Assembly: GCF_009707545.1 (NCBI RefSeq)
Contig: NZ_WLYK01000005.1
Span: 186,001 to 250,000 of the forward strand
DNA length: 64,000 nt
DNA from: Nakamurella alba
GTDB lineage: Bacteria > Actinomycetota > Actinomycetes > Mycobacteriales > Nakamurellaceae
Direction of reading: 5' to 3'
The notes under the pieces are model-generated. The model saw only the letters and a list, made by a program, of their open reading frames with translations, had not been told where the DNA came from and did not search any database. Positions 44,907-60,101 of this stretch are shown in pieces. The translations under genes and the position numbers were made by a program. Within the stretch, counting starts at the first letter, position 1. Each line of letters begins with the position of its first letter.

Positions 44907-45925
44907 AACCGCTGCGGCGCCGTCATTGTCGCCGACTCCGTCACGGTGGCGAGGTGGCCCTGGACCTGTTCCGGGTGATCGGCCAGCCGCTCCTGGTCGT
45001 ACCAGGCGCGCTCCAGCAGGTGCCGGGACAGCAGCGCGACCCGCTCCTGCATCCCGCGTCCGAGCATCCCGGCCGCCCGCACCAGACCGGCCAGCATCCG
45101 CTCCGCCCACCGCCGGCGCAGCACCGCACCTGTGAACGTCCGCAGCACCTCCTGGCCGGACGGCGCCGCCTGCAGTCCGTGCAGCATCGGCCAGCGCCGG
45201 GACAGCCGGGCGAGACTGGTCCCACGGGAACGTGCCTCGCGGAAGAAGCCGGCGAGGTCCTTGCGGTGCAGGTGATCCGCCCGGGCCGCCGGCGAGTAGT
45301 GCATCCGCACGCCGAGCAGGGACAGCCGGAGCCCCAGGTCGAGGTCCTCGAAGTAGTCCAGCCGCACCGTCGGCGCCACCGACTCGGCGGCCAGGATGTC
45401 CTGCCGCCGCGCCGAGAGATGGCCGGTCCACAGCGATTCCGCGAGCGTGGCCGGAGCGGCGATCCAGGTCTGCACCGTGCGTCGGTAGGACTCGGCGTAC
45501 ACCCGGACCGGCAGCGTGTCCGCGTCGCCGTGCGCCGGGGCCGCCACCGGCATCGCACCGACCAGCAGCACCGGTCCGCCGGCCGACCGCTGGTGGAAGT
45601 CCCGGTGCACCTGCACCGCGCCGGGGGTCAGCCGCACGTCGTCGTCGATCAGCAGGACGGTGCCGTGCTTCGCCGCACCCACGCCGGCTAACCGGGCCAG
45701 CGCGGCACCGCGGTTCTCCGGCAGCACCAGGACCCGCACCACGGGGTGGATGCCGGCGGCCAGCGCGGCCGCACCCGGTGCGCCGGGACCGTCGATGACC
45801 ACGAGGATCTCGTCCCGGTCGGTGTCGACACCGGCGTCCAGCGCGGCCGGCAGCACCGTCCGCAACAGCTGTTCGTCCCCGCGGGTCACCACGACCAGGG
45901 AGATCGGTGGTCCGGCAGGAGTCAC
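44891..45925 (-). CDS. GT2-family glycosyltransferase coupled to the A-T-TE synthetase
   Basis: A 344-residue glycosyltransferase: ISLVVVTRGDEQLLRTVLPA, ILVVIDGPGAPGA, the DxD-like VLLIDDDVRLTPGAV and the acceptor-side YFEDLDLGLRLSLLGV. The GTG start at 45925 overlaps the stop of the synthetase gene (GTGA). The pair is therefore one iron-box-controlled transcript, which suggests that the synthetase product, or a lipid-linked sugar, is glycosylated. Alternatively it belongs functionally to the neighbouring polysaccharide cluster. Confidence 0.85.
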   Translation of the reverse strand: MTPAGPPISLVVVTRGDEQLLRTVLPAALDAGVDTDRDEILVVIDGPGAPGAAALAAGIHPVVRVLVLPENRGAALARLAGVGAAKHGTVLLIDDDVRLTPGAVQVHRDFHQRSAGGPVLLVGAMPVAAPAHGDADTLPVRVYAESYRRTVQTWIAAPATLAESLWTGHLSARRQDILAAESVAPTVRLDYFEDLDLGLRLSLLGVRMHYSPAARADHLHRKDLAGFFREARSRGTSLARLSRRWPMLHGLQAAPSGQEVLRTFTGAVLRRRWAERMLAGLVRAAGMLGRGMQERVALLSRHLLERAWYDQERLADHPEQVQGHLATVTESATMTAPQRFQAGA

Positions 45926-48579
45926 CGCGCCGGCACCCCGGCCCCGTCCATCGCCGTGGTGATCCATTCGGCCAGGGTGGCCACGTGCGGTGCCCGGACC
46001 AGCGAGACGTGATCGGTCCGGATCGTGCGGAACTCGGTGTCACCGGCGAGAATGCCGCCCCACCAGGAGGGTTCGTCGGTGTTCTGGGTCGACCGCACCA
46101 CCAGCACCGGTCCGCGCCACGGCCGGGGGCGGTGCACCCGGGCGACCCGCAGACCCTGTTCGGTCATCGCCAGGTGGTGGTCCTCCGGCGGGAGCCGCAC
46201 GATGCCGGCCATCAGCACCAGCCGGCGGGCCCGCCACAGCGCCCGCTTCGTCGACTCCGCGGTGGTACCGGGGTCCGGTGCCGGCAGGCTGCCCAGCTCC
46301 CGGTACCGGCGGGCGATCGTCTCCGGGAGGTAGGTGTCCAGCAGCACCAGGCTCGCCACCTGCTGCCCGCGGGCGGCCAGCAGGTGGGCCGTCTCCAGCG
46401 CGATCAGTCCGCCCAGCGAGTGGCCGACCAGGTGGTACGGCCCCTCCGGCTGGATCCGGAGCAGCGCCGCGAGGTGCCGGCGGGCGGCCCGCCGGACGGT
46501 CCAGTCCGGCATGCCGCGTGTCTCCAGGCCGTGCGGCTGGAAGCAGTGCACGGGCTGGTCGGCACCGAGCTCGGTGGCCAGTGGCAGGAAGGTGATCGCC
46601 GAGGCGCCCGCGCCTGCGAAGCAGAACAGCGGTGGGCGGGTGCCGGTGCCGCGCAGGGTCACCGTCGATCCGCTCGGCACCCGCTCGCCGAGCTGTCCCA
46701 CCCTCGCGGCGAAATCGGCGAGCGTGGGTGCCCCGGCGAGATCGGAGGCGACCAGGGTGCAGGACAGCCGCTCGCCGACCCGGGTCAGCATCTCCTCGAC
46801 GTGGAGCGAGTCGCCGCCGAGCTCCATGAAGTCGTCCTCGCGGTGGACCGCCTCGACATCCAGGATCTCGCACCAGATGTCGGCGATCACCGTCTCCCAC
46901 GACCCGCGCGGGGAGGTGCCGTCTGCCCGGTGCGCCGGCACCGTCAGGCCTTTCCGGTCGACCTTGCCGCGCTCGTTGCGCGGCAACTCCGGCAGCAGCA
47001 CGACGGTCTGGGGGACCATCCACTCCGGCAGCTTCTCCCGCAGCCGCCGGCGCAGCGCGGTGGCGGACAGGGTGCGGGTGCGGGCGGCCGGGCTCACCCA
47101 GGCGACCAGCCGGGTACGGCCGGCGTCACCGGTCTCGGCGCGCACGACGGCCTCGCCGATCTCCGGCAGTCCGGCGATTACCGCCTCCACCTCGGCCGGC
47201 TCCACCAGATACCCGCGGATCTTCACCGCGGCGTCGCCGCGGCCGAGCAGGTGCAACACCCCGTGCTCGTCGAACCGGGCGAGATCCCCCATCCGGTACC
47301 GGCGCACACCGTCCGCCCAGGCGCCGAACGGCGAGGACTCCGGCTCCTCGCAGTAGCCCTCGGCCAGGTACCCGCTGTCCAGGTGCACGACGCCGGTCGC
47401 CCCGTCCGGCACCGGCCGCCCCTCCGCATCCAGCAGCCGCACCGTCTTGTTCGGCGCCGGCGTGCCCACCGGGACGATCCCGGACGGGATCGGGTCGGCC
47501 GGGCCGATCCGGTGGAAGGCGAGGTGACCGGTCTCCGACGAACCGGACCAGGAGATGTAGTCGGCGTCGGCGTCCAGGTGCAGGCGCAATGCCTCGACGT
47601 CCCGACCGTGCACCGCCTCGCCGCAGGTGGTGACCAGCCGGACCCCGGGCAGGCCGGCCGACTCCGGGAGCACGGACAGCAGCGACCGCAGCAGCGACGG
47701 CGTCACGTGCAGTGTGCTGATCCCGCGGGCCCCGAGCAGGTGGGCCACCTCGGGGGCACCGACCAGCCGCGGGTCGCCGATCACCAGGCCGGCGCCGTTG
47801 AGCAGCGCCATCCACCACACCGCGAGCCCGGCCGCGAAGGCGGCCGGAAGCACCAGGGCCACCGTGTCGTCCGGGCAGAGCCCGAGCGCGATCCGCCCGC
47901 CGACCGCCTCGTTCAGCAGGATGCGGTCTCCGTACCGCACGCCCTTCGGGGTCCCGGAGGAGCCGGAGGTGAACACCAGGAAGCGGTCACCCGGCGGGAG
48001 CTGCACGTCGTCGAGCAACTCCGCACCCAGGCCCAGGGTCTCCGCGTGCCGCGCCGCGCCGAGCAGTTCGTCCAGGTCCGCGACCGCGACCGTGCCGTCG
48101 GCGGTACCGAGACCGGCCCGCCGGTCCGGCTCGGCCAGCACCAGCCGGGCGCCGGCCCGGTGCACGATGTCCGACCAGCGGTCGGCGGGCAGCATCGGGT
48201 CCAGCAGCACCACCGGGTGGCCGGAGAGCAGCACGCCCAGCGCCACCGTCAGCGCGGACGTGCCCTGCTCGGCAAGCACGGCGACCGGCGCCGTCACCGG
48301 ACCGGCCGCACCGATCGCGCGCCGCAGGGCCGAACCCTCGGCGAGCTCGTCCGGCCGGGTCAGCATCGCGGCGATCGCCCGTGCGGTCCGGTCGGTCTCG
48401 GCGAACGTGCGGCGGTCCCGGCAGCAGGACAGCGCGACCGCGTCCGGCCGGGCGCGGACCACCTCGGCCCAGCGGGAGGCCACCGTGGGCTCCCCGTTCG
48501 ACGGATGGGGCCCGCCGACCCGCGCCGGAAGGGTCAGCGGAGCCAAGGAGATGGTCTGGGATGAGGGCTGCACGAGCAC
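45922..48579 (-). CDS. Stand-alone A-T-TE nonribosomal peptide synthetase-like enzyme
   Basis: An 885-residue three-domain enzyme with no condensation domain. Adenylation domain: LVFTSGSSGTPKGV (203-214 core), RYRMGDLARF, AAVKIRGYLVEPAEVE, and RNERGKVDRKG with the catalytic Lys539. Carrier domain: DDFMELGGDSL with phosphopantetheine Ser591. Thioesterase: VGHSLGGL with nucleophile Ser721. In the A4 stretch FAAGLAVWWMALL (248-260) the position that holds Asp in alpha-amino-acid A domains is Ala249. That points to a substrate without an alpha-amino group, such as an aryl or keto acid. An iron box overlaps the GTG start; a second GTG two codons downstream is an alternative. Confidence 0.88.
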   Translation of the reverse strand: MLVQPSSQTISLAPLTLPARVGGPHPSNGEPTVASRWAEVVRARPDAVALSCCRDRRTFAETDRTARAIAAMLTRPDELAEGSALRRAIGAAGPVTAPVAVLAEQGTSALTVALGVLLSGHPVVLLDPMLPADRWSDIVHRAGARLVLAEPDRRAGLGTADGTVAVADLDELLGAARHAETLGLGAELLDDVQLPPGDRFLVFTSGSSGTPKGVRYGDRILLNEAVGGRIALGLCPDDTVALVLPAAFAAGLAVWWMALLNGAGLVIGDPRLVGAPEVAHLLGARGISTLHVTPSLLRSLLSVLPESAGLPGVRLVTTCGEAVHGRDVEALRLHLDADADYISWSGSSETGHLAFHRIGPADPIPSGIVPVGTPAPNKTVRLLDAEGRPVPDGATGVVHLDSGYLAEGYCEEPESSPFGAWADGVRRYRMGDLARFDEHGVLHLLGRGDAAVKIRGYLVEPAEVEAVIAGLPEIGEAVVRAETGDAGRTRLVAWVSPAARTRTLSATALRRRLREKLPEWMVPQTVVLLPELPRNERGKVDRKGLTVPAHRADGTSPRGSWETVIADIWCEILDVEAVHREDDFMELGGDSLHVEEMLTRVGERLSCTLVASDLAGAPTLADFAARVGQLGERVPSGSTVTLRGTGTRPPLFCFAGAGASAITFLPLATELGADQPVHCFQPHGLETRGMPDWTVRRAARRHLAALLRIQPEGPYHLVGHSLGGLIALETAHLLAARGQQVASLVLLDTYLPETIARRYRELGSLPAPDPGTTAESTKRALWRARRLVLMAGIVRLPPEDHHLAMTEQGLRVARVHRPRPWRGPVLVVRSTQNTDEPSWWGGILAGDTEFRTIRTDHVSLVRAPHVATLAEWITTAMDGAGVPAR

Positions 48580-48597
48580 TCGCTGAGGCTAACCTAA
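48579..48597 (-). promoter_or_regulatory. DtxR/IdeR-type iron box at the A-T-TE synthetase start
   Basis: Read on the minus strand the left half TTAGGTTAGCCT is perfect; overall 15 of 19 positions fit the consensus. Its last base is the first base of the GTG start codon at 48579, so bound repressor would cover the transcription start or ribosome site. Confidence 0.7.
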
Positions 48598-48670: not shown

Positions 48671-48679
48671 ACATCAGAC
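48671..48679 (+). repeat. ACATCAGAC promoter-associated motif, copy 3
   Basis: Directly followed, with no gap, by the iron box of the surface-protein gene, the same arrangement as at 54074. Confidence 0.6.
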
Positions 48680-48698
48680 TTAGGTTCGCCTTGGTTCA
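48680..48698 (+). promoter_or_regulatory. DtxR/IdeR-type iron box upstream of the WxL-like surface protein
   Basis: The left half TTAGGTTCGCCT is nearly perfect, the right half is degenerate; 14 of 19 positions fit. It begins 119 bp before the start codon. Confidence 0.55.
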
Positions 48699-48798: not shown

Positions 48799-51582
48799 AT
48801 GAAGCCAATCAGAACAGGGCGCAGCCGTACCCGGCTGGTCGCGCTGGGGGTGAGCGGCCTGGTGGCCGCCGGCCTCGCGCTCACGCCCATCGCATTCGCC
48901 GCACCTCCGGGTGGTGGCAGCGACACGAACACCCCGAACACGCAGGTGACCCTCTCCGCGGAGGGCGTCACCATCGGCAGCACCCTGTCGTTCACCGGCA
49001 GCGGCACCGGCCTGAAGCTCTTCGCCGAGGCCGGCCGCAAGACCGTCTTCGTGAAGATGGACGACGGCGCGGTCGTCCCGACCACCGGCGCCGGCGGCGT
49101 CGCGGACGCCTGGGCGGAGGTCCCGGTCACCCTGTCCGCGGACGGCACCCAGGGTCAGTTCGCCGGGTCGATCACCATCCCGGAGAAGATCAGCGGCGGT
49201 GCGGACTTCCCGCTCGGCGTGCACACGCTGCGGTTCCTCGGCCAGGCCCCGTACACCGACCCGACGCTCGGCGAGGTGACCCTCGGGTTCACCTACAAGA
49301 GCGCCGAGTTCGCGGTCGGTCCGACACGCAACCCGCAGGCCACCGTCACCCCGTCGACCGGTGTGCTGCCGGGCACGGATGTGACGGTCTCCGGCACCGG
49401 CTTCACCCCGCGCCAGCAGCTCGCGGTGAAGATGGACCAGAACACCTACGGCATGCTGCGGGAGAACGACACCCCCGGCATCCCCGCCCGGATCGTCGTC
49501 GGCGACGACGGCACCTTCTCCGACGAGATCGTCACGATCCCGACGGCGAAGCCGGACGGTTCGGCGGTCCCGGAGGGCTCGCACACCCTGCACCTGCTGG
49601 ACTCCACCCCGATCACCTCGGTCCCGCTGAGCTTCACCACGGTATCGGCCACCACCACGGAGCCGACCTCGCCGAGCACCAGCGAGCCGACTGTGCCCAC
49701 CACGGAACCTTCGGTCCCCACCACGGAGCCGAGCGAGCCGACTGTGCCCACCACGGAGCCCAGCGAGCCGACCACGGATCCCACGGTCCCGACCACGGAT
49801 CCCACCACTCCGACCACGGAGCCGACCGTCCCGACCACGGAGCCCACGGACCCGACCACGGACCCGACGACCCCGACGACGGAGCCCACGGTCCCCACCA
49901 CGGATCCCACCGAGCCCACGGTCCCCACGACGGATCCCACCGAGCCCAGCACCCCGGGCACCGGTGAGCTGAACCTGGCGCAGGTCTCGGCCTCGCTCGG
50001 CGTCGGGCAGTACCAGATCGCCTACTCCGCACGGAACGACGTGCTGTGGGTGACCACTGCTGTCGGCCGCCCGCCGGTGACCCAGAGCAAGCTGCTCAAG
50101 GTCGATCCGGAGACGCTGGCGATCCTGGCCACCTACGACACCCCGGTGCTGGACTCCGCCACCGGCCGGGTCGAGGCGGTCTACGGCATCGACGTCGACG
50201 ACACCCGGAACACGGTGTGGGTCTCCACCACCCGCGACAACGGCGTGGCCGTGTACTCGCAGGAGACCGGCGCCCACCTGGCGTCGCTCACCGACGTGAA
50301 CCACTCCCGTGAGGTGCACGTTGTCGAGGAGGCGAACGCGGTCTACGTGTCCGCCGTCTACGGCAACTACATCGCCAAGTTCGACGCGACCACCTACCAG
50401 CGGATCGACACGATCGCGCTGACCGGTCAGCCGATGGGCCTGGACCACGACGGTGCGAACCTGTACACGACCACGCTGGACACCAACAAGCTGGTGATCA
50501 TCAACGCCACCACGGGTCCGCGCTACTTCGACCTGCCGGCCGGCGCCGCCAGCTCCTCCAACGTCGCGGTGGACGCCGAGGCGAACGAGGTCTGGGTCGC
50601 CAGCCAGGGTTCGTCGAACGAGTCCGGTGGCCTGGTCACCGTGCTCGACGACCAGACCGGTGAGATCAAGGGCTCGGTGAAGACCGGCTACGGCTCGCTC
50701 GCGCTGGCCGTGGTGCCGGAGTCGGACGTCGTGTTCTCGGCCGACTTCTACGTCGGCACCGTGTCGGTCATCGACACCGAGACCGTCGAACTGCTGGACA
50801 CGCTGGCCATCTCGGCCCAGCCGAACCACATGGTCACCGTGGGCACGAACGTGTACCTGGTGGACAAGTCCGGGGCCGGCACCGCCGGTGCCGACCAGAT
50901 CACCAAGCTCACCGCCACCCGCGAGGGCGCCCCGGTCGACCCGACGGATCCCACCGACCCGACGGACCCGACCGATCCGACGGATCCCACGGACCCCACG
51001 GACCCGACCGAGCCGACCGAGCCCGGTGACAGCGGCATCGACGTCACCGCGGTGGTGCCGGGTGCCCCCACGGATCCGACCGATCCCACCGACCCGACCG
51101 ACCCGACGGATCCCGAGCCCGAGCCCGGCTTCCTGTCGCTGACCGTGCCGGACACCGGCGCCTCGGTGACCCTGGAGGACCGGGGTGTGCAGGGTGACCG
51201 ACGGTCGTACTCCGGTCTGCTGCCCATCGTGAAGGTCACCGACTCCCGGAACGACGGCCAGGCCGCCGGCGGCGGCTGGTCGGTCTCCGTCCAGGCCGGT
51301 GCGTTCGTCGCCGGCGCCGATCAGCAGATCGACGCCAAGTACCTGGGCTGGACCCCGGAGGTGCTCACCGAGCGCTCCGGCCTGACCCCGGGTGACGCGG
51401 TCTCGGGTGCGCTGGACGGCGGCGCCGGCATCGGCGTCCCGGCCCGGCTCGCCGCGGCCGACGGCGAAGGTCGTTGGGGCGACGCGGAACTGGGTGCCCA
51501 GTTGCACCTCGGCATCCCCGTCGACACCTCGGCCGGCACCTACGCCTCGAACCTGACGGTCTCGCTCTTCCCGACCGACTGA
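48799..51582 (+). CDS. Secreted surface protein: Ig-like domains, YncE-like propeller, WxL-like C-terminus
   Basis: A 927-residue exported protein. Signal peptide 1-34 (cleavage after AFA). An Ig-like domain at about 48-174 contains VFVKMDDGAVVPTT and GVHTLRFLGQAPY; a second at about 175-284 contains LAVKMDQNTYG. A Thr/Pro/Glu repeat spans about 287-389. About 390-711 is a YncE-type beta-propeller (NDVLWVTTAVG, NTVWVSTTRDNGVAVYSQET, NAVYVSAVYGNYIAKFD). A Asp-Pro-Thr repeat spans about 713-774. About 775-927 resembles a WxL domain (GGWSVSVQAGAFV, YASNLTVSLFP). An AGGAAGGG site precedes the ATG. A DUF916 protein gene follows, as in Firmicutes WxL loci. Inference: iron-regulated wall-bound receptor or adhesin. 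Confidence 0.82.
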   Translation: MKPIRTGRSRTRLVALGVSGLVAAGLALTPIAFAAPPGGGSDTNTPNTQVTLSAEGVTIGSTLSFTGSGTGLKLFAEAGRKTVFVKMDDGAVVPTTGAGGVADAWAEVPVTLSADGTQGQFAGSITIPEKISGGADFPLGVHTLRFLGQAPYTDPTLGEVTLGFTYKSAEFAVGPTRNPQATVTPSTGVLPGTDVTVSGTGFTPRQQLAVKMDQNTYGMLRENDTPGIPARIVVGDDGTFSDEIVTIPTAKPDGSAVPEGSHTLHLLDSTPITSVPLSFTTVSATTTEPTSPSTSEPTVPTTEPSVPTTEPSEPTVPTTEPSEPTTDPTVPTTDPTTPTTEPTVPTTEPTDPTTDPTTPTTEPTVPTTDPTEPTVPTTDPTEPSTPGTGELNLAQVSASLGVGQYQIAYSARNDVLWVTTAVGRPPVTQSKLLKVDPETLAILATYDTPVLDSATGRVEAVYGIDVDDTRNTVWVSTTRDNGVAVYSQETGAHLASLTDVNHSREVHVVEEANAVYVSAVYGNYIAKFDATTYQRIDTIALTGQPMGLDHDGANLYTTTLDTNKLVIINATTGPRYFDLPAGAASSSNVAVDAEANEVWVASQGSSNESGGLVTVLDDQTGEIKGSVKTGYGSLALAVVPESDVVFSADFYVGTVSVIDTETVELLDTLAISAQPNHMVTVGTNVYLVDKSGAGTAGADQITKLTATREGAPVDPTDPTDPTDPTDPTDPTDPTDPTEPTEPGDSGIDVTAVVPGAPTDPTDPTDPTDPTDPEPEPGFLSLTVPDTGASVTLEDRGVQGDRRSYSGLLPIVKVTDSRNDGQAAGGGWSVSVQAGAFVAGADQQIDAKYLGWTPEVLTERSGLTPGDAVSGALDGGAGIGVPARLAAADGEGRWGDAELGAQLHLGIPVDTSAGTYASNLTVSLFPTD
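49660..49965 (+). repeat. Thr/Pro/Glu/Asp tandem coding repeat
   Basis: Short units coding for TTEPTVP-like and TTDPTTP-like steps repeat for about 100 codons in the surface-protein gene. They form an extended wall-spanning linker and are likely to vary in length between strains. Confidence 0.85.
50938..51115 (+). repeat. Asp-Pro-Thr tandem coding repeat
   Basis: Two blocks of GA(C/T)-CC(C/G)-AC(G/C) units encoding (DPT)n, interrupted by a short GDSGIDVTAVVPGAP segment, join the propeller to the WxL-like domain. The third codon positions alternate, which breaks perfect DNA identity. Confidence 0.85.
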
Positions 51583-51700: not shown

Positions 51701-52957
51701 ATGCGCATCGTGTCCCGTCCGTCCCGCACCCGGCGCCGCCGCACCAGGGGGCTGCTGCTCCCGGCCCTCGCCCTGGCCACGGTCGCCGGGCTGCTCGTGC
51801 CGCCGGCGGCGTTCGCCGTCGAGGAACCCTCCGGCAGCGCCTCCGCGAGCGCACCCGCTTCCGCGAGCGCTCCTGCTCCCGCGAGCGCCGCGACGACCGA
51901 CACCGAGGCCGACCGGGTCACCTGGTCCCTCTCCCCCGCCACCGACGGCGTCGCCGACGACCGGGTCTCCTTCCGCTACGAACTCGACGCCGGCGGCAAC
52001 GCGGCCGACAGCGTCGTCGTCCGCAACTTCGCCGACCGCGAGGTCACCTTCGCGCTCTACGCCGGCGACGGCATCACCACCGAGGCCGGTCAGTTCGACC
52101 TGGCCCAGGCCGGCGTCGAGCCGGTGGACTCCGGCCGCTGGATCAAGCTCGAGCAGACCTCCGTGACCGTGCCGGCCCAGGGCACCGCCGTGGTGCCGTT
52201 CCGGGTCCAGGTGCCCGCGGACGCCACCCCCGGCGACCACCCGGCGGGCATCGTCGCCGTGGTCCGCACCCCCGGCCAGGACGCTGCCGGCGCCGCGGTG
52301 TCCGTCGAGCGCCGGGTCGGCGTGCGGATGCATCTGCGGGTGAGCGGCGCCATCGCGCCGGCCCTGGAGGTGCAGGGTCTGACCACCGACTTCTCCGGGT
52401 CCTGGACGCTGCTCGGCGGCGGCAGCCTCGGGGTCACCTTCGACGCGGTGAACACCGGCAACGTCCGGTTGGGCGGGATCGGGCAGGTCGAGCTGTCCGG
52501 GCCGCTCGGCATCTGGAACCGCACCGTGCCGCTGACCGCGATCACCGAGATCCTTCCGGGCGGGCGGGTGCCGGTGGACATCACCGTCGACGGGGTGCCG
52601 CCGCTGTTCATGATCTCCGCGAAGGTGGTCCTCACCCCGACCGCGGTCGCGGCCGATGCCGTCGTGCCCGCCGCCGTCGCGGAGAGCACCGCCCGCTCCG
52701 CCGCGCTGCCCTGGCTTTGGGTGCTGGTCGTCGCCGTGCTCGCCCTGCTGGTGGTCAACCTGTTCCTCCGTCGCGGGCGGTGGCAGCGCAAGCTGACCGC
52801 GGCGGTCGAGGAAGCCGTCGAGGAGGCGACCGGGAAGGCCACTGGGAAGGCAGCCGGGACGGCGAAGACCGACGGGACCTCCGCGGACGCCGGCCGGGCC
52901 GCAACCGAGCCGACGACCACCGCCCCCAGGGTGGCCGCCGCGCCGCGGCACCGCTGA
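51701..52957 (+). CDS. DUF916 (WxL-protein peptidoglycan-domain) membrane protein
   Basis: A 418-residue protein with signal peptide (about 1-39), an Ala/Ser/Pro linker, and a DUF916-type domain at about 68-210: VTWSLSPATDGVADDRVSFR, DSVVVRNFADREVTFALYAG, PADATPGDHPAGIVAVV. A second beta domain with LGVTFDAVNTGNVRLGGIG follows. One membrane helix (about 331-354) and a Lys/Glu/Ala cytoplasmic tail end the protein. In Firmicutes, DUF916 proteins accompany WxL-domain proteins and attach them to peptidoglycan; the upstream gene encodes such a WxL-like protein. The ATG start follows a GAGAAGG site. Confidence 0.85.
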   Translation: MRIVSRPSRTRRRRTRGLLLPALALATVAGLLVPPAAFAVEEPSGSASASAPASASAPAPASAATTDTEADRVTWSLSPATDGVADDRVSFRYELDAGGNAADSVVVRNFADREVTFALYAGDGITTEAGQFDLAQAGVEPVDSGRWIKLEQTSVTVPAQGTAVVPFRVQVPADATPGDHPAGIVAVVRTPGQDAAGAAVSVERRVGVRMHLRVSGAIAPALEVQGLTTDFSGSWTLLGGGSLGVTFDAVNTGNVRLGGIGQVELSGPLGIWNRTVPLTAITEILPGGRVPVDITVDGVPPLFMISAKVVLTPTAVAADAVVPAAVAESTARSAALPWLWVLVVAVLALLVVNLFLRRGRWQRKLTAAVEEAVEEATGKATGKAAGTAKTDGTSADAGRAATEPTTTAPRVAAAPRHR

Positions 52958-54082: not shown

Positions 54083-54101
54083 AATAGTAAGGCTATCCTC
54101 A
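54083..54101 (+). promoter_or_regulatory. Degenerate DtxR/IdeR-type iron box upstream of the LAxTG protein operon
   Basis: Fits TWAGGTWAGSCTWACCTWA at 14 of 19 positions, mainly the centre and right half. It ends seven bases before the ATG, which lacks a ribosome site. Confidence 0.45.
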
Positions 54102-54108
54102 GATCACT

Positions 54109-55695
54109 ATGAGTGAGCCGACGCAGAACCCGCCGCCCTCCCGCGTGACACAGACCTCGACGGTGAACCGGCTGGTCCGCCGGGGCCGTCGGCCGGTCGG
54201 CGTGGCGGTGGGTCTGCTCGGCGCAGGGATCCTGATGCTGGCCGCGACCGGCGGGGTGTCGGCCGCCGAGGGCGAGGCTTCCGGGTCCGCCTCCGCCACC
54301 CGGATCGCGGTCACTGCGGGCCAGCCGCTCGCGCCGGCCGCTGATCTCGCGATCGCCGGCAGCGACATCCAGCTGGTAGGAGCGGATCTGGCGCCGGGTG
54401 ATGATCTCGATGTTCTGCTTGACGGCGAGCTGCTGGGCACCGTGGTCGTCGGTGACGACGGGGTGCTGGACACCGTGGTCACCATCCCCGCATCGACCCT
54501 GGCTGGCAAGCACTGGATCGAGATCGAGGGTTCCGCCGTCTCCCACCGCATCGAGATCCTCGCCGCCGCAGTCGATGTCGCGAGCAGCACCGGGACAGCG
54601 TCGACCGCCGGGCCCGCCGCTTCGTCGAGCAGTGCATCGTCGAGCAGTGCATCGTCGAGCGCACCTGCCACCGCGGAGTCCGCCGCTGCCGGCGACACCC
54701 CGACCTCGGCGTCCTCGACCCCTTACACCACTGAGCCCATCGCCACTGAGCCCGTCGCCACGGAGCCCGTCGCCACGACGGCAGCTCCGACCACCACCAG
54801 CGCTACGGAGAACACGGAGAGCACCGAGAGCACCGAGAGCACCCAAACTCTCGAGTCCGCGGGGAACCAGGCGCGGATCGCCGTCGCGGCCGCACCCCAG
54901 GGAGCGGCGCTCGCGCTGCCGCCGGGCGGCGCGGCGTCGGACACCCCGGGCACGTCGTCGACCGTAGACGGGTCGGCGGCGATCGGCGAGCAGCTGTCGT
55001 TCACCCTCAGCGGCTACCCCGCCGGCGAGACGGTCTACGTGAAGATCGATGACGGCCAGTACACCGGCTCCGGTGTGGTCGCCGGCGCCGACATCGTCGC
55101 CACCTTCCCGATCCCGGATTCCGGATCGGTGTCCGGGACCATCACCGTCCCGGCCGATCTGGCCGAGGGCGACCACTGGCTGCGCTTCCTCGCCTCCAAG
55201 GTCGTGGACGCGGGCACCCTGGGCTACACGCACAAGAGCGACACCTTCACGGTGACTGCCGCCGCTGCTCCCACCACCAGCGCCGGCACCACCACGACGG
55301 CGCCCACGACGAGCGCCGGCACCACCACCGCCGCACCCACGACCACCTCGGGCGCGACCACCACCGGCTCCACCACCAGCGGTGGCAGCACCGCGGGCAC
55401 CACCACCGGCACCTCCGGGTCCGTGGCCGGCACCGGCGCCACCACCTCGTCCGGTTCCGACACCGGCTCCGGTACCGCGTCGACCACCACCACCGACTCC
55501 GACGGCACCGGGACGGCTGCCGGCGGCGACAGCGCAGGCAGCGGTGGCGGCGGTGCCGGATCCGGGACCTCGAGCGGCGGCGGTGCTCTGGCCTCGACCG
55601 GTGTCGATTCCGGGACCGCGCTCGCCATCGGCGCCGGGCTGCTGCTGGCCGGGGCCGGCATCGCCGGACCGTCCCGGCGCCGGGCCACGTCGTGA
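54109..55695 (+). CDS. LAxTG sortase-anchored surface protein with Ig-like domains
   Basis: A 528-residue exported protein. A signal helix covers about residues 30-52. Ig-like part 1 at about 64-152 (VLLDGELLGTVVVGDDGVLD); Ser/Thr-rich linker to about 250; Ig-like part 2 at about 275-383 with ETVYVKIDDGQYTGSG, GTITVPADLAEGDHWLRFL and LGYTHKSDTFTV. That second part is homologous to the first Ig-like domain of the 927-residue surface protein. A Thr/Ser/Gly stalk follows, then a sorting signal: LASTG at 494-498, a hydrophobic helix and a basic end (RRRATS), suitable for a class E sortase. No sortase gene is in the window. It heads the second iron-box operon. Confidence 0.8.
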   Translation: MSEPTQNPPPSRVTQTSTVNRLVRRGRRPVGVAVGLLGAGILMLAATGGVSAAEGEASGSASATRIAVTAGQPLAPAADLAIAGSDIQLVGADLAPGDDLDVLLDGELLGTVVVGDDGVLDTVVTIPASTLAGKHWIEIEGSAVSHRIEILAAAVDVASSTGTASTAGPAASSSSASSSSASSSAPATAESAAAGDTPTSASSTPYTTEPIATEPVATEPVATTAAPTTTSATENTESTESTESTQTLESAGNQARIAVAAAPQGAALALPPGGAASDTPGTSSTVDGSAAIGEQLSFTLSGYPAGETVYVKIDDGQYTGSGVVAGADIVATFPIPDSGSVSGTITVPADLAEGDHWLRFLASKVVDAGTLGYTHKSDTFTVTAAAAPTTSAGTTTTAPTTSAGTTTAAPTTTSGATTTGSTTSGGSTAGTTTGTSGSVAGTGATTSSGSDTGSGTASTTTTDSDGTGTAAGGDSAGSGGGGAGSGTSSGGGALASTGVDSGTALAIGAGLLLAGAGIAGPSRRRATS

Positions 55696-56969
55696 CGGCG
55701 GCGGCGCTCCGCCCGCCGAAGGTCCCTCGGCCGACCCCGGCGCCGCGCACCTCGGACCCGGCCCTGCGCCGGCTGGCCGGCCGGCTGCTGGCCGCCGCGC
55801 CCGCCGAGCAGGCGCGGATCGTCGCCGAGTTCTGGTCCGGCGTGGGCCGGTCCGGAGCGCCGATGATCACCCCGACAGCCACTCCCGGCCGGTACCTGGT
55901 CACGTTCCTCTGGCGCGACCCGATGACGTGTGGCGTCCCCTTGCCGGACGTGCTCCTCTTCGTCAACCGGCTCACCGACGAGCGGGATCTGGCCCGCAGT
56001 CTGATGTCCCGGATCGCCGGCACCGACATCTGGCACCTCACCTACGAGGTGTCGTCCCGGTGGCGGGCGGGTTATGCGTTCCTCCCGCTCGACGCCGAGC
56101 GGAGTCTGCTGGCCGAGGGCGATCAGGTCCGGCTGCGGTCGGCCCTGGACGCCGGACGCACGGACCCGTTCGGCAGCGACACGGTGTGGGCCCGCGGCGG
56201 TGGCCTGCGCTCCGTGGTCTCCCTGCCGGAGGCCCCGCCCGAGCCGTGGCGCCACCTCCGACCGGCGGTACCGGCCGGACGGTTGGACCTGCGCACCTCC
56301 CCCGATCTGCCGGGCTATCCCGGTCGCCGCGTGTGGGTGCACCGGCCCGCCGGGATCCCGGACGGCGCACCGCTTCCGGTGCTGGTGCTGCTGGACGGCG
56401 ACGTCTGGGCACAGCACGTGCCGTTCCTGCCGTCGCTGGCGAACCTGATGGCCGACGGGATGATCCCGCCCATGGTCACCGTGCTGCCGGACAGCGGGTC
56501 CCGCGACCGCCGCTGGACGGAGCTGACCGATCAGCGGCCGGTGGTCGACGCGATCGTGGACCACCTCGTCCCCTGGGCCACCGGCGGCGACGGGCACCTC
56601 GGGATCACCGTGGCCGGAGCCTCTCTCGGCGGACTGACCGCGGTCGCGGCTGCCTTGTTGCGGCCGGACCGGGTGACCGGTGCGGCCGGCCTGTCCTCCT
56701 CGCTCTGGTGGAACCCGGCGGGTGATCCGGTCCCGCCGGCCCACCGCTGGGCGCTGGACTGCGCACCCGGGCCGCGGCTGGATCTCCAGGTGGGACTGCA
56801 GGAGTGGGTGCTGCTGCCCCCGCACCACGAGTTCACCGACGTGCTGCGGTCGGCCGGGCACGACGTCACACTCACCGAGTTCGACGGCGGGCACGACCAC
56901 GCCTGCTGGCGCGGCGGTCTCGCCGACGCCCTGGTCCGCCTGCATGACGCCGAGCGAGCCGCGGCATGA
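55692..56969 (+). CDS. Enterochelin-esterase-like hydrolase (Fes/IroD type)
   Basis: A 425-residue hydrolase. Residues about 45-160 match the N-terminal domain of enterochelin esterases (YLVTFLWRDP, LLFVNRLTDERDLARSLMSR, GTDIWHLTYEVSSRWRAGYA). Residues about 190-415 are the esterase-D-like alpha/beta domain with nucleophile Ser311 in VAGASLGGLT and catalytic His401 in FDGGHDHACW. Family members cut ester bonds in ferric catecholate siderophores to free iron in the cytoplasm; no signal peptide is visible here. GTGA overlap with the LAxTG gene and ATGA overlap with the binding protein show one operon. Catechol-ester siderophore use is a fair inference. Confidence 0.9.
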   Translation: MTAAALRPPKVPRPTPAPRTSDPALRRLAGRLLAAAPAEQARIVAEFWSGVGRSGAPMITPTATPGRYLVTFLWRDPMTCGVPLPDVLLFVNRLTDERDLARSLMSRIAGTDIWHLTYEVSSRWRAGYAFLPLDAERSLLAEGDQVRLRSALDAGRTDPFGSDTVWARGGGLRSVVSLPEAPPEPWRHLRPAVPAGRLDLRTSPDLPGYPGRRVWVHRPAGIPDGAPLPVLVLLDGDVWAQHVPFLPSLANLMADGMIPPMVTVLPDSGSRDRRWTELTDQRPVVDAIVDHLVPWATGGDGHLGITVAGASLGGLTAVAAALLRPDRVTGAAGLSSSLWWNPAGDPVPPAHRWALDCAPGPRLDLQVGLQEWVLLPPHHEFTDVLRSAGHDVTLTEFDGGHDHACWRGGLADALVRLHDAERAAA

Positions 56970-58027
56970 CCGCCCGGTGGCGCCTCTGGTGCGCGGCCGT
57001 GCTCGGCGCGGCGGTGCTGACCGGCTGCGGCAGCAGCCCCACGGGCGAGTCCTCGGTGCTCAACACCTCCGCCCTGAACGCGACCGCCCAGGCGACGGGC
57101 TCCGGGACAGCGGAAGCCCCGGCGGCGGACGGCACCCGGACGGTCACCGACGCCCTCGGCGAGCAGATCACCGTGCCGGCCGATCCGCAGCGGGTGGTCA
57201 CGCTGTCCGAGCCGACGCTGGACGGCGTGCTGGCCCTGGGCATCACCCCGGCCGGCACCACCGCCGGACGCGGCCGGTCCACCGTCGCCGACTACCTGCC
57301 GGCGTCCGCGCAGCAGATCCCGCTGCTCGGCACCGTGGCGCAGCCGAACGTGGAGGCGATTGCGGCGGCCACGCCGGATCTGATCCTGGTCGACGGCACG
57401 TCGATCAACAACAACCCGCCGCTGATCGAGACGCTGCAGGAGATCGCACCGACCGTGCAGACCGGTCTGGCGGGTGGCGACTGGGAGGCGAACTTCTCCC
57501 TGGTCGCGCAGGCACTGGGCAAGGAGTCCGACGGCGACCGGGTGCTGGCGGACTACCACTCCCGGGCGGACGAGCTCGCCGGCGGACTGAGCAGCCATGC
57601 GGAGCAGACGTTCTCGATCGTCCGGTGGCAGGGCAACTCCGCGTCGCTCATCCTCAAGGAGCTGCCGGCCGGGCGGGCGCTCACCGACCTCGGGCTGCAG
57701 CGCCCGGGGAACCAGGACCGCAACGGCCGTGGGCACTCCGAGCCGGTCGCCCTGGAGAACCTGGCCGAGATCGACGCCGATTGGATCTTCTTCGGCACCC
57801 TGGGCGGCTCCTCCGTCGGCAACCCGCAGGCCGGCGGCGGCGCCGACAGCGCGGCGGCCCAGGCCGTGCTCGAGGAGGCCGCCCGGACACCGGGTTTCAC
57901 CACCCTGCAGGCCTACCGGGCCGGGCAGGTGGTGCCGGTCGACGGATCGGTCTGGACCTCCACCGGCGGCCCATTGCTGATGTCCCGGATCCTGGACGAC
58001 GTCTCCGCCGCCCTGCTCGGCACGTGA
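56966..58027 (+). CDS. Siderophore ABC transporter substrate-binding lipoprotein (second system)
   Basis: A 353-residue lipoprotein with lipobox Cys21 (AAVLTGC). The binding domain follows the FecB pattern: RTVTDALGEQITVPADPQRVV, TLDGVLALGITPAGT, AIAAATPDLILVDGTS and VVPVDGSVWTSTGGPL. Start ATG is in an ATGA overlap with the esterase gene, and its end is in a GTGA overlap with the permease. It captures the ferric siderophore on the outer membrane face. Confidence 0.93.
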   Translation: MTARWRLWCAAVLGAAVLTGCGSSPTGESSVLNTSALNATAQATGSGTAEAPAADGTRTVTDALGEQITVPADPQRVVTLSEPTLDGVLALGITPAGTTAGRGRSTVADYLPASAQQIPLLGTVAQPNVEAIAAATPDLILVDGTSINNNPPLIETLQEIAPTVQTGLAGGDWEANFSLVAQALGKESDGDRVLADYHSRADELAGGLSSHAEQTFSIVRWQGNSASLILKELPAGRALTDLGLQRPGNQDRNGRGHSEPVALENLAEIDADWIFFGTLGGSSVGNPQAGGGADSAAAQAVLEEAARTPGFTTLQAYRAGQVVPVDGSVWTSTGGPLLMSRILDDVSAALLGT

Positions 58028-59049
58028 CCGGCCCACTGACCATCACCACCCGGCCGGTGCTGCCGGCCTGGGCGGCGGCAACGGCCGTGCTGCTGTTGTC
58101 GCTGCTGGCCGGTCTCACCATCGGCTCGAATCCGCTGTCGCCGGCCGAGGTGTGGTCGCTGCTGCTGCACCCCGACGGCTCCTTCGACTCCGAGATCTTC
58201 TGGCAGGGACGGGTACCGCGCACCCTGCTGCTGCTCGTCGTCGGCGCTGCACTGGCAGTCGCCGGCGCGATGATGCAGTCCCTGACCCGTAACCCGCTCG
58301 CCGACCCGGGCATCTTCGGCATCAACCAGGGGGCGGCGCTGGCCGTCGTGCTCGCCGTGGTGGTGACCGGGCGGACCGACCTGATGACCTACCTCTGGTT
58401 CGCGTTCGCCGGCGCTGCTGCTGCGGCGGTCGCGGTCACCGTGCTGGGCGGCGCCGGTCGACCGTCCGACATCGGCGGGCCGGTCCGGCTGGCGCTGGCC
58501 GGCGTCGCCGTCAGCGCCGCACTCGGCTCACTGGTGCAGACGCTGGTACTGGCCGACGCCGACGCCTTCAACGAGTTCCGCTTCTGGGCAGCGGGTTCCG
58601 CGGAGGGCCGCGGCTTCCCGGTGCTCTGGACGGTGCTCGGCTTCCTGGTGATCGGGATGGCCATGGCCTTCGGCAGCGCCCGCTCGATGAACGCACTGGC
58701 CCTCGGCGACGACACCGGGCGCGCACTCGGCGTCCGGCTCGGCCGCACCCGGATCACCGTGATGGTGGCGGTGGCCCTGTGCTGCGGCGCCGCCACCGCA
58801 GCGGTCGGCCCGATCGCCTTCCTGGGCCTTGCGGTCCCGCACCTCGCCCGCGCGCTCACCGGACCGGACCTGCGCCGGATGCTGCCGGTCGCGGTGGTGC
58901 TGGGCGGCGCGCTGCTGCTGCTCGCCGACGTGATCGGCCGGGTGGTGGCCGGCGGCGAGGGCGAGGTGCAGGTCGGCATCGTCACCGCGCTGCTCGGCGG
59001 GCCGGTGTTCGTGCTGGTCGCCCGTAGCCGACGGGTCACCGACCGATGA
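58024..59049 (+). CDS. FecCD-family siderophore ABC permease (second system, subunit 1)
   Basis: A 341-residue permease with LLLLVVGAALAVAGAMMQSL, TRNPLADPGIFGINQGAALA and the ATPase-contact GPIAFLGLAVPHLARALTGPD, very close to subunit 1 of the first system (TRNPLADPGLLGI there). Starts at GTG in a GTGA overlap and ends in an ATGA overlap with the partner subunit. Confidence 0.93.
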   Translation: MTGPLTITTRPVLPAWAAATAVLLLSLLAGLTIGSNPLSPAEVWSLLLHPDGSFDSEIFWQGRVPRTLLLLVVGAALAVAGAMMQSLTRNPLADPGIFGINQGAALAVVLAVVVTGRTDLMTYLWFAFAGAAAAAVAVTVLGGAGRPSDIGGPVRLALAGVAVSAALGSLVQTLVLADADAFNEFRFWAAGSAEGRGFPVLWTVLGFLVIGMAMAFGSARSMNALALGDDTGRALGVRLGRTRITVMVAVALCCGAATAAVGPIAFLGLAVPHLARALTGPDLRRMLPVAVVLGGALLLLADVIGRVVAGGEGEVQVGIVTALLGGPVFVLVARSRRVTDR

Positions 59050-60101
59050 GCCTGAGCCGACCGATGAGCCTGACGGCCTCCCGCACGGATTCGCCCCTCC
59101 GGCGTCGGGCCGACCCGCGTCCGCGCCGGGTGATCGCCGCGGTGCTGATGGTCACCGCGGTCGCCGGCATCCTGACCCTGACCCTCGGCGACTACCCGGT
59201 GGACGTGCCCGGGGTCTGGCAGGCGCTCATCGGCGCCCACGAGGACCGGCTCGCCCGCTACTTCGTCCGGGAGATCCGGCTGCCCCGGGTGATCGGTGCC
59301 GTACTGGTCGGGGCAGCGCTCGGCGCCAGTGGCGCGATCTTCCAGTCGCTGTCCCGCAACCCCCTGGGCAGCCCGGACCTGATCGGCTTCACCACCGGTG
59401 CGGCGACCGGTGCACTGGTCGAGATCCTCTTGGGCACCGGCAGTCCCACCGCCGTGGCCGGGGCGGCCGTGCTCGGCGGCGTCGCCTCGGCGGTGTTGAT
59501 CTACCTGCTCGCTGCCCGGCGCGGTGTCTCCGGGTTCCGGCTGGTGCTGGTCGGTGTGGGTATCGCGGCGGTGCTGCAGTCGGTCAACGCGCTGCTGGTG
59601 GTCCGCGCCGACCTGGCGCAGGCGCAGTCCGCGGCGCAATGGCTGGCCGGCTCGTTCAACGACATCCGCTGGCCGGGCCTGGTGGTGCTGATCCCGGTGC
59701 TGGCCGTGCTGCTGCCCTGGGCGATCGCCTCCCGGCGGTCGCTCGACGTGCTGGCGCTGGGCGACGAACTGGCCGGCGCGCTGGGGGTGGCCGTCGGCCG
59801 TTCCCGGTTGCTGCTGATCGTGGTCGGGGTGCTGCTGGTGGCGGTGGCCACCGCGGCGGTCGGCCCGATCGCCTTCGTCGCGCTCGGCGCACCGCAGGTC
59901 GCCCGCCGGCTGACCGGTGCGTCCGGGCCCGGCGTGGGCGCCGCGGCCGCGGTCGGCGGGTTGCTGGTGCTGGTCTGCGATGTGCTGGCGCAGCGCCTCT
60001 TCGCCCCCACCCAGCTCGCGGTCGGTTCGGTGACCGGCGCGCTGGGTGGCGCCTTCCTGGTCTGGCTGCTGGTCGTCACCTGGCGCGGGCGGCGGCCGTG
60101 A
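59046..60101 (+). CDS. FecCD-family siderophore ABC permease (second system, subunit 2)
   Basis: A 351-residue permease: LPRVIGAVLVGAALGASGAI, SRNPLGSPDLIGFTTGAATG and GPIAFVALGAPQVARRLTG. The first ATG overlaps the previous stop; a second in-frame ATG six codons on (MSLTASRTD) is also possible. No ATPase gene follows, unlike in the first importer. The dehydratase/HPPD-like gene starts 28 bp later. Confidence 0.92.
   Translation: MSLSRPMSLTASRTDSPLRRRADPRPRRVIAAVLMVTAVAGILTLTLGDYPVDVPGVWQALIGAHEDRLARYFVREIRLPRVIGAVLVGAALGASGAIFQSLSRNPLGSPDLIGFTTGAATGALVEILLGTGSPTAVAGAAVLGGVASAVLIYLLAARRGVSGFRLVLVGVGIAAVLQSVNALLVVRADLAQAQSAAQWLAGSFNDIRWPGLVVLIPVLAVLLPWAIASRRSLDVLALGDELAGALGVAVGRSRLLLIVVGVLLVAVATAAVGPIAFVALGAPQVARRLTGASGPGVGAAAAVGGLLVLVCDVLAQRLFAPTQLAVGSVTGALGGAFLVWLLVVTWRGRRP

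Follow-up and report, generated by a model that had tools for sequence, protein, structure and literature searches.

A YncE-type beta-propeller and Ig-like surface domains in a predicted ferric-siderophore locus of Nakamurella alba

The stretch of DNA analyzed here (the window) comprises 64,000 nucleotides of Nakamurella alba (contig NZ_WLYK01000005.1, positions 186,001 to 250,000), part of a genome of 6.05 Mb. It contains a ferric-siderophore locus in which two surface proteins, one WxL-like and one with an LAxTG motif, share an immunoglobulin (Ig)-like domain. The WxL-like protein also carries, between its Ig and WxL parts, a beta-propeller that was overlooked in a preliminary description of this DNA. 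Related propellers lie beside siderophore genes in Actinomycetota and Pseudomonadota, and predicted iron boxes precede many of the actinobacterial ones. We put at about even the chance that the locus encodes an iron-regulated module for capture of ferric catecholates, in which the propeller would be the likely binder and the Ig domains would serve as a stalk or as accessory sites.

The propeller and its siderophore context

The propeller model has a predicted local distance difference test (pLDDT) score of 94.6, and its nearest fold is that of Escherichia coli YncE (3vgz, 7seu; template-modeling (TM) score 0.83-0.85), to which the sequence also matches (7.6e-10). Against the NCBIfam YncE equivalog, the window protein scores 69.8 bits and three relatives score 75-104 bits, all below the cut-off of 400, which by sequence makes the window propeller a member of the YncE superfamily and not YncE itself. 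Six polar propeller residues (Tyr15, Gln16, Arg89, His112, Arg114, and Asn286) are invariant; they were seen only post hoc and are not used as evidence. The placement of a ligand pocket from propeller conservation was rejected, the two faces being alike (p 0.60).

To survey the family, a propeller alignment was scanned over one genome per GTDB species, a selection not led by iron genes. It returned 129 relatives, and the best 80 were kept. A locus was called catechol when at least one of EntE, EntB, nonribosomal peptide synthetase (NRPS), or Fes lay within about 10 kb, with thresholds that we set ourselves. Catechol-siderophore genes are found near the propeller in 61 of the 80 loci (38/55 in Actinomycetota and 23/25 in Pseudomonadota), with L049 counted through an NRPS match alone. 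Most actinobacterial loci come from Streptomyces, and the counts are therefore not independent. In L034 and L056, an NRPS homologue lies on the opposite strand, upstream of the propeller gene; L033 has one in the vicinity. An Ig gene was detected by profile in 15/38 actinobacterial catechol loci versus 0/17 others (Fisher p 0.002), using a profile built partly from sequences of two of the surveyed species. In 11 Streptomyces loci (L043, L048, L054, L057, L061, L070, L072, L075, L076, L077, and L090), a separate four-domain Ig protein lies between Fes and the propeller, and in Streptomyces fumigatiscleroticus the Ig repeat protein at this position is reduced to a C-terminal tail (L038:9485-9790), a decayed or deleted copy. 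In Pseudomonadota, the Ig domain resides inside the propeller protein itself in 21/25 loci.

Iron boxes were scored against what we take to be the consensus of the DtxR/IdeR/DmdR type, allowing at most 4/19 mismatches in the 550 bp preceding the propeller domain, with gene starts of the same loci as the control. Among actinobacterial loci, such a box precedes the propeller in 26/38 catechol loci and in 14/17 loci without siderophore genes, compared with 27/453 control starts. A box also precedes the Ig domain in 10/15 cases, and six catechol loci without a propeller box have one before the upstream Ig gene (L048, L054, L070, L075, L076, and L077). These data support predicted DtxR/IdeR-type iron control of the propeller genes.

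Co-occurrence was examined at the genome level in 150 Streptomyces genomes, using a propeller threshold of E 1e-40 or better and Enterochelin_N as the marker of the Fes-type esterase. The propeller is present in 11 genomes, every one of which is among the 29 that carry Enterochelin_N (p 2.3e-9, kinship ignored), and in seven of the 11 the two genes are 0.9-3.4 kb apart. Gram-negative gene orders are also informative. L103 has a TonB receptor, an esterase, and the Ig-propeller, with a FecCD permease further on; L094 and L108 have an esterase (identified by Pfam in the former and by eye in the latter), a propeller protein whose N-terminal domain has no Ig-profile match, a Peripla_BP_2 protein, and FecCD. 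In L112, a TonB receptor lies directly upstream of the Ig-propeller, and no biosynthesis gene was found. Such neighbors point to uptake more than to synthesis.

In a propeller tree of 81 rows, the Pseudomonadota (25) stand apart from the Actinomycetota (56), and siderophore context occurs in both deep clades. The siderophore-context label changes 10 times on this tree versus 17.3 times in shuffles. The topology fits both an association that predates the split and transfer between the phyla. The window groups with Phytohabitans maris, N. leprariae, and Streptomyces sp. NBRC 109706, in all of which the propeller is part of a WxL-type protein and siderophore context is present. A Streptomyces clade of propeller paralogues without neighboring siderophore genes was also seen (L059, L063, L074, L080, L081, and L110); three of these six genomes also carry a siderophore-linked copy (L061, L054, and L077), and four of the six loci have an iron box with at most four mismatches.

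Several observations weigh against a ferric-catecholate capture module. Nineteen of the 80 propeller loci have no catechol-siderophore genes within about 10 kb (17 actinobacterial loci and the proteobacterial L107 and L112), although three (L064, L068, and L069) are truncated where a contig ends, and the identical propellers of L068 and L069 come from a single genome. The propeller is missing, at the threshold used, from 18/29 Fes-bearing Streptomyces genomes and is therefore not essential for catechol siderophores, and the propeller and esterase matches lie on different contigs in 4/11 genomes (G769, G787, G824, and G883). No single conserved propeller face was found (mean loop conservation of 2.12 for the top versus 2.18 for the bottom, permutation p 0.60). 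The propellers of genomes G465 and G478 belong to the family more loosely, with propeller-profile scores of only 110-120 bits. In Alcaligenes (L085), the propeller gene is preceded by an exporter-type gene of the major facilitator superfamily (MFS; 8215-9465, PF05977 and PF07690) amid biosynthesis genes. Two weak copies of the Ig domain elsewhere in the N. alba genome, described below, have no match to NRPS, EntE, EntB, Fes, FecB, FecCD, WxLIP, WxL, QuiC, or the propeller within about 10 kb around. Finally, a close EntE, the enzyme of 2,3-dihydroxybenzoate activation, was not found in the window genome (22 matches at 29-36% identity), and the siderophore of the window is therefore not established as a 2,3-dihydroxybenzoate catecholate. 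Together with this negative result, the QuiC-like gene and the single-module NRPS suggest an unusual siderophore, perhaps one based on 3,4-dihydroxybenzoate.

Layout of the locus and its Ig-like domains

From left to right, the locus encodes an NRPS on the minus strand, the WxL-like protein, its WxLIP partner, a GntR/FCD regulator, the LAxTG protein, a Fes-type esterase, a FecB lipoprotein, two FecCD-type permeases, and a QuiC-like dehydratase. The features are as follows.

45922..48579, minus strand: NRPS whose match range covers adenylation, carrier, and thioesterase regions, transcribed divergently from the WxL protein gene; NCBIfam gives EntF-type as the best match (240 bits, below cut-off)
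48579..48597, plus strand: predicted iron box of the DtxR/IdeR/DmdR type, 4/19 mismatches, in the divergent region between the NRPS and WxL protein genes
48799..51582, plus strand: WxL-like surface protein; the open reading frame opens at 48691, with ATG at 48799
48931..49323, plus strand: Ig-like domain 1, with VKMDDG and HTLRFL, by profile and pairwise alignment
49357..49659, plus strand: Ig-like domain 2, profile E 7.7e-7; neocarzinostatin-type chromoprotein models match nearby, under cut-off
49969..50928, plus strand: YncE-type seven-bladed beta-propeller, by sequence and model fold
51004..51579, plus strand: WxL-like, predicted cell-wall-binding C-terminus, 62% identity over 149 columns to the L010 C-terminus
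51701..52957, plus strand: WxLIP_PGBD protein (DUF916-type), predicted membrane-anchored partner of WxL proteins; PF06030 1.2e-7, 50% identity to the L010 gene
53022..53855, plus strand: GntR/FCD regulator, by Pfam
54083..54101, plus strand: weak iron-box-like site ahead of the LAxTG gene, 7/19 mismatches, alone at chance level
54109..55695, plus strand: LAxTG surface protein, by open reading frame
54352..54555, plus strand: degenerate Ig copy in the N-terminal part of the LAxTG protein, profile E 1e-6
54952..55263, plus strand: Ig-like domain of the LAxTG protein, with VKIDDG and HWLRFL, by sequence and AlphaFold2 model
55588..55602, plus strand: LASTG sortase-type motif, by sequence; TIGR01167 just below cut-off
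55692..56969, plus strand: Fes-type ferric-enterobactin esterase, PF11806 2.6e-30 and PF00756 6.5e-16
56966..58027, plus strand: FecB-type siderophore-binding lipoprotein, PF01497 5.2e-22
58024..59049 (start approximate), plus strand: FecCD-type permease 1, named from sequence and matches in relatives
59046..60101, plus strand: FecCD-type permease 2, named through its match to L103:11885-13108, which passes PF01032
60046..61788 (true start probably downstream of 60046), plus strand: QuiC-like 3-dehydroshikimate dehydratase, NCBIfam QuiC 402.8 bits (cut-off 1200), PF01261 1.5e-38

The preliminary description named a FecB lipoprotein here, and the Pfam matches of the esterase and the lipoprotein (PF11806, PF00756, and PF01497), all above cut-off, support a ferric-siderophore locus that includes one. 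The GntR/FCD regulator adjoins the esterase in L171 as well. The WxL-like protein begins with a signal-peptide-like segment, followed by Ig1, Ig2, a TEPT linker, the propeller, a TDP linker, and the WxL-like C-terminus. That the two surface proteins would have separate anchors, one of the sortase type and one of the WxL/DUF916 type, agrees with their sequence features, which make both anchors putative. The C-terminus of the LAxTG protein (55588-55692) consists of LASTG, a hydrophobic stretch, and RRR; the LPXTG model TIGR01167 gives 14.8 bits versus a cut-off of 15.9, and the genome encodes four sortases. The window WxL-like protein has no Pfam WxL match at E <= 0.1, and its C-terminus is the counterpart of that of the Nakamurella relative L010, whose protein passes PF13731 (38.7 bits, cut-off 25). 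The WxLIP_PGBD gene follows directly and scores 32.2 bits (cut-off 27.3).

The same preliminary description proposed that one Ig-like domain recurs in both proteins, and all of the peptides it quoted are present in the two open reading frames. The LAxTG and WxL-protein domains are identical in 45/112 columns (40%, pairwise E 7e-11). When the LAxTG copy was used as a query in a single-sequence, six-frame search of the whole genome, it recovered itself and the WxL-protein copy (45% identity, E 2e-4), with no further match below E 0.05. The domain itself thus stands, whereas the count of three given for it does not, profile searching having detected four copies in the two proteins. The profile also finds the two weak copies mentioned above, at C6:399451 (41.7 bits) and C1:1235445 (40.2 bits), in wall-anchor-like proteins. 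The AlphaFold2 model of the LAxTG copy is all-beta (pLDDT 86.5), and its matches in the PDB are to Ig proteins of generic type. None of the window proteins passes a Pfam Ig family; a Streptomyces Ig repeat protein passes GEVED with 55.4 bits (cut-off 24.4). In the Nakamurella genus sample, the LAxTG Ig domain is found at E 0.001 in 2/17 genomes, those of the window and G008.

The preliminary description also placed a motif and iron-box junction ahead of both genes. The motif, ACATCAGAC, is present at 48671 and 54074, but the boxes beside these copies, at 48680 and 54083, have 7/19 mismatches, and with 4.25 such sites per shuffle each is singly at chance level. The good box lies instead at 48579, near the WxL gene, where no site with as few as four mismatches arose in 20 shuffles; in many relatives, boxes with few mismatches occur at these same genes. 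Within the window, the iron-box element of the preliminary description is thus borne out only in part. All four plus-strand copies of ACATCAGAC in the window (37058, 48601, 48671, and 54074) have an iron-box-like 19-mer (37041, 48579, 48680, and 54083) at a distance of 9-22 bp. The reverse complement has one copy, at 55999, inside a gene, and a stricter genome-wide pattern recovers only the 54074 site. Judged from these positions, ACATCAGAC may possibly be a companion element of iron boxes.

The occurrence of the Ig domain was examined with a profile at E 1e-5, scoring at most 12 candidates per genome in a class set and 33 in a Streptomyces set. Matches were found in 45/394 class genomes and 16/150 Streptomyces genomes, 60 genomes in all, of which 22, including G000 and G262, were inspected; the other 38 have weak matches. 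All nine genomes with matches of at least 57 bits (G000, G262, G465, G478, G602, G718, G732, G818, and G819) show siderophore-type loci. For G602 and G732 this assignment comes from Fes, FecB, FecCD, and the propeller, a range of 20 kb having yielded no NRPS, and for G465 and G478 from NRPS, FecCD, and the looser propeller, with no Fes above threshold; G478 has an additional chorismate-binding gene of the isochorismate-synthase type. In the former two (L172 and L171, about 2.8-14.4 kb), we observed Fes, FecCD, an LPXTG-like Ig protein, FecB, and an Ig-propeller fusion, and their carriers may possibly use foreign siderophores.

Among nine genomes with matches of 46-55 bits, five (G754, G464, G477, G620, and G576) have FecCD-type genes nearby, in loci that look like the heme-uptake type. 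Pfam identifies HtaA in L176 and L178, heme oxygenase in L175, and HtaA below cut-off in L174; in these loci and in L181, a protein of its own near FecCD carries the weak Ig relative. Eight fetched regions with weak matches (G663, G562, G613, and G888, and the lower-scoring G900, G862, G545, and G695) yielded none of the iron genes queried. The occurrence check set out in the preliminary description, whether the domain is widespread in loci without iron genes, thus comes out in favor of that description for close relatives (matches of at least 57 bits, all in siderophore-type loci). Below that score, matches are partly generic and include the two in the N. alba genome, and the view that the Ig domains form a narrow family found only with iron genes was accordingly rejected.

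Proposed function and alternatives

The propeller is the most constant part of these systems and persists without Ig proteins, without anchors, and even without neighboring siderophore genes. This persistence, the iron box in 14/17 such loci, and the precedent of XusB, discussed below, lead us to place ligand capture in the propeller and a stalk or docking role in the Ig domains. The propeller and two Ig domains would be held in the Nakamurella wall by the WxL/WxLIP pair, and a second Ig protein would be attached to the wall by sortase. Most likely, the propeller would capture the iron-loaded siderophore outside the membrane and raise its local concentration for the FecB lipoprotein and the FecCD permeases, and the Fes-type esterase would then open the siderophore. 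The Ig domains would most likely be stalks or docking sites by which the propeller and its partner proteins are arrayed across the wall, and they might also contact the ligand weakly. The Ig-propeller fusion of Pseudomonadota would have a periplasmic role between a TonB receptor and a FecB-type protein. A broader and more tentative proposal, which we hold to be somewhat doubtful, is that of an undescribed siderophore-capture system common to both phyla, in which a YncE-type propeller with Ig modules would bind ferric catecholates outside the inner membrane, in the periplasm of Gram-negative bacteria or displayed on the wall of Gram-positive bacteria through WxL or sortase anchors, the Gram-positive Ig proteins being the siderophore counterpart of the Isd heme relay.

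The alternative that survives best is that the Ig domains are plain wall-spanning stalks, a spacer common to the two surface proteins, with no relay from one Ig domain to another; we consider its odds evenly balanced. The number of Ig copies varies among 1, 2, 4, and 10, and the structural model resembles generic Ig proteins, with no NEAT domain among the best 50 of 1505 Foldseek rows. Profile comparison (hhalign 97.7%) assigns the same fold to five N-terminal domains from Pseudomonadota, yet these five aligned copies do not conserve the Lys-Asp-Asp and Trp-Leu-Arg residues. Weak relatives (<50 bits) reside in surface proteins with no iron genes nearby, both in the eight fetched regions and at the two sites in the N. 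alba genome. Against a purely mechanical role, Lys31, Asp33, Asp34, His75, and Arg78 are invariant across 20 actinobacterial copies from eight proteins, and the strong matches fall without exception in siderophore-type loci.

The same invariant charged residues could speak for an Isd-like relay, in which the Ig domains would bind an iron compound and pass it from the LAxTG protein to the WxL protein and on to FecB, and so could the weak Ig relatives in heme-type loci near HtaA (L176 and L178) or heme oxygenase (L175). Such a relay is nonetheless unlikely. Among the actinobacterial loci, 23/38 of the catechol type with a propeller yielded no Ig gene, and the 17 that lack siderophore genes yielded no Ig match at all; the motif is not kept in the five aligned Pseudomonadota copies. 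The suggestion in the preliminary description that the Ig domain carries the ligand is therefore not supported, given the unconserved motif, the propeller loci without an Ig gene, copy numbers that run from 1 to 10, and weak relatives away from iron genes.

Virginiamycin B lyase (Vgb) acts on cyclic depsipeptides, and the propeller could by analogy be an enzyme, for example one with lyase or lactonase activity that breaks open the siderophore ring extracellularly. A Streptomyces propeller does match Vgb_lyase (5.4e-8, 32.4 bits, below the cut-off of 50), and Foldseek lists Vgb with TM scores of 0.78-0.84; however, YncE is nearer in both fold and sequence, and many catechol loci already have a match to a Fes-type esterase, which makes an enzymatic role improbable. 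Least probable is a module for siderophore export or storage rather than uptake, for which the Alcaligenes gene order speaks, because L094, L103, L108, and L112 have TonB receptor, binding-protein, or FecCD neighbors and because L171 and L172, where a range of 20 kb yielded no NRPS, combine Fes, FecB, and FecCD.

Relation to known systems

To our knowledge, little is known of the route by which a ferric siderophore returns through the thick wall of the Gram-positive bacterium that produced it, and YncE-like propellers are mostly without known function. If the proposed capture by the propeller is correct, these data suggest an undescribed way to catch iron-loaded siderophores outside the cell membrane and a role for some YncE-like propellers. 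The ties of one propeller family to siderophore loci in two phyla, together with its iron boxes, make a direct binding test possible, given the precedent of ferric-enterobactin binding by a propeller of another family with a solved structure. Among the papers listed in literature searches of openly licensed work, none concerned an association of Ig domains with propellers in siderophore loci.

The closest precedent is XusB (DUF4374) of Bacteroides, a surface lipoprotein of the XusABC system. It is a seven-bladed propeller located on the TonB receptor of a Gram-negative bacterium, binds ferric enterobactin with a dissociation constant of about 55 nM, and passes the ligand on (PMC13142918). The two systems share a seven-bladed propeller, here predicted to lie outside the membrane as XusB does, and an iron-siderophore uptake locus; they differ in that XusB is a lipoprotein on a TonB receptor, whereas the YncE-type propeller described here is part of a WxL protein, alone, or fused to an Ig domain, mostly in siderophore biosynthesis loci. 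DUF4374 is absent from the four Pfam matches of the window protein at E <= 0.1.

E. coli YncE is the best match in fold and matches in sequence, but the window protein and its three relatives reach only 70-104 bits versus the equivalog cut-off of 400, and we know of no Ig domain or siderophore cluster associated with YncE. Heme uptake of the Corynebacterium HtaA type likewise has surface proteins beside a binding protein and a FecCD permease, and weak Ig relatives occur in such loci; the window differs in having a siderophore esterase instead of heme oxygenase and no HtaA domain (PF04213 is absent from eight scanned window proteins, with one copy elsewhere in the genome). In the Isd systems of Gram-positive bacteria, sortase-linked surface proteins hand an iron compound inward. 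The idea of a sortase-linked surface relay is common to both; the window proteins differ in having no NEAT match in Pfam at E <= 0.1. With the WxL/WxLIP complexes, the window has in common the neighboring WxLIP_PGBD protein and a putative WxL-like C-terminus; it differs in that its surface protein has no match to the Pfam WxL model and combines this C-terminus with a propeller, within a siderophore locus. Each part is of a known kind, and their combination would be a variant of the surface or periplasmic siderophore-binding systems.

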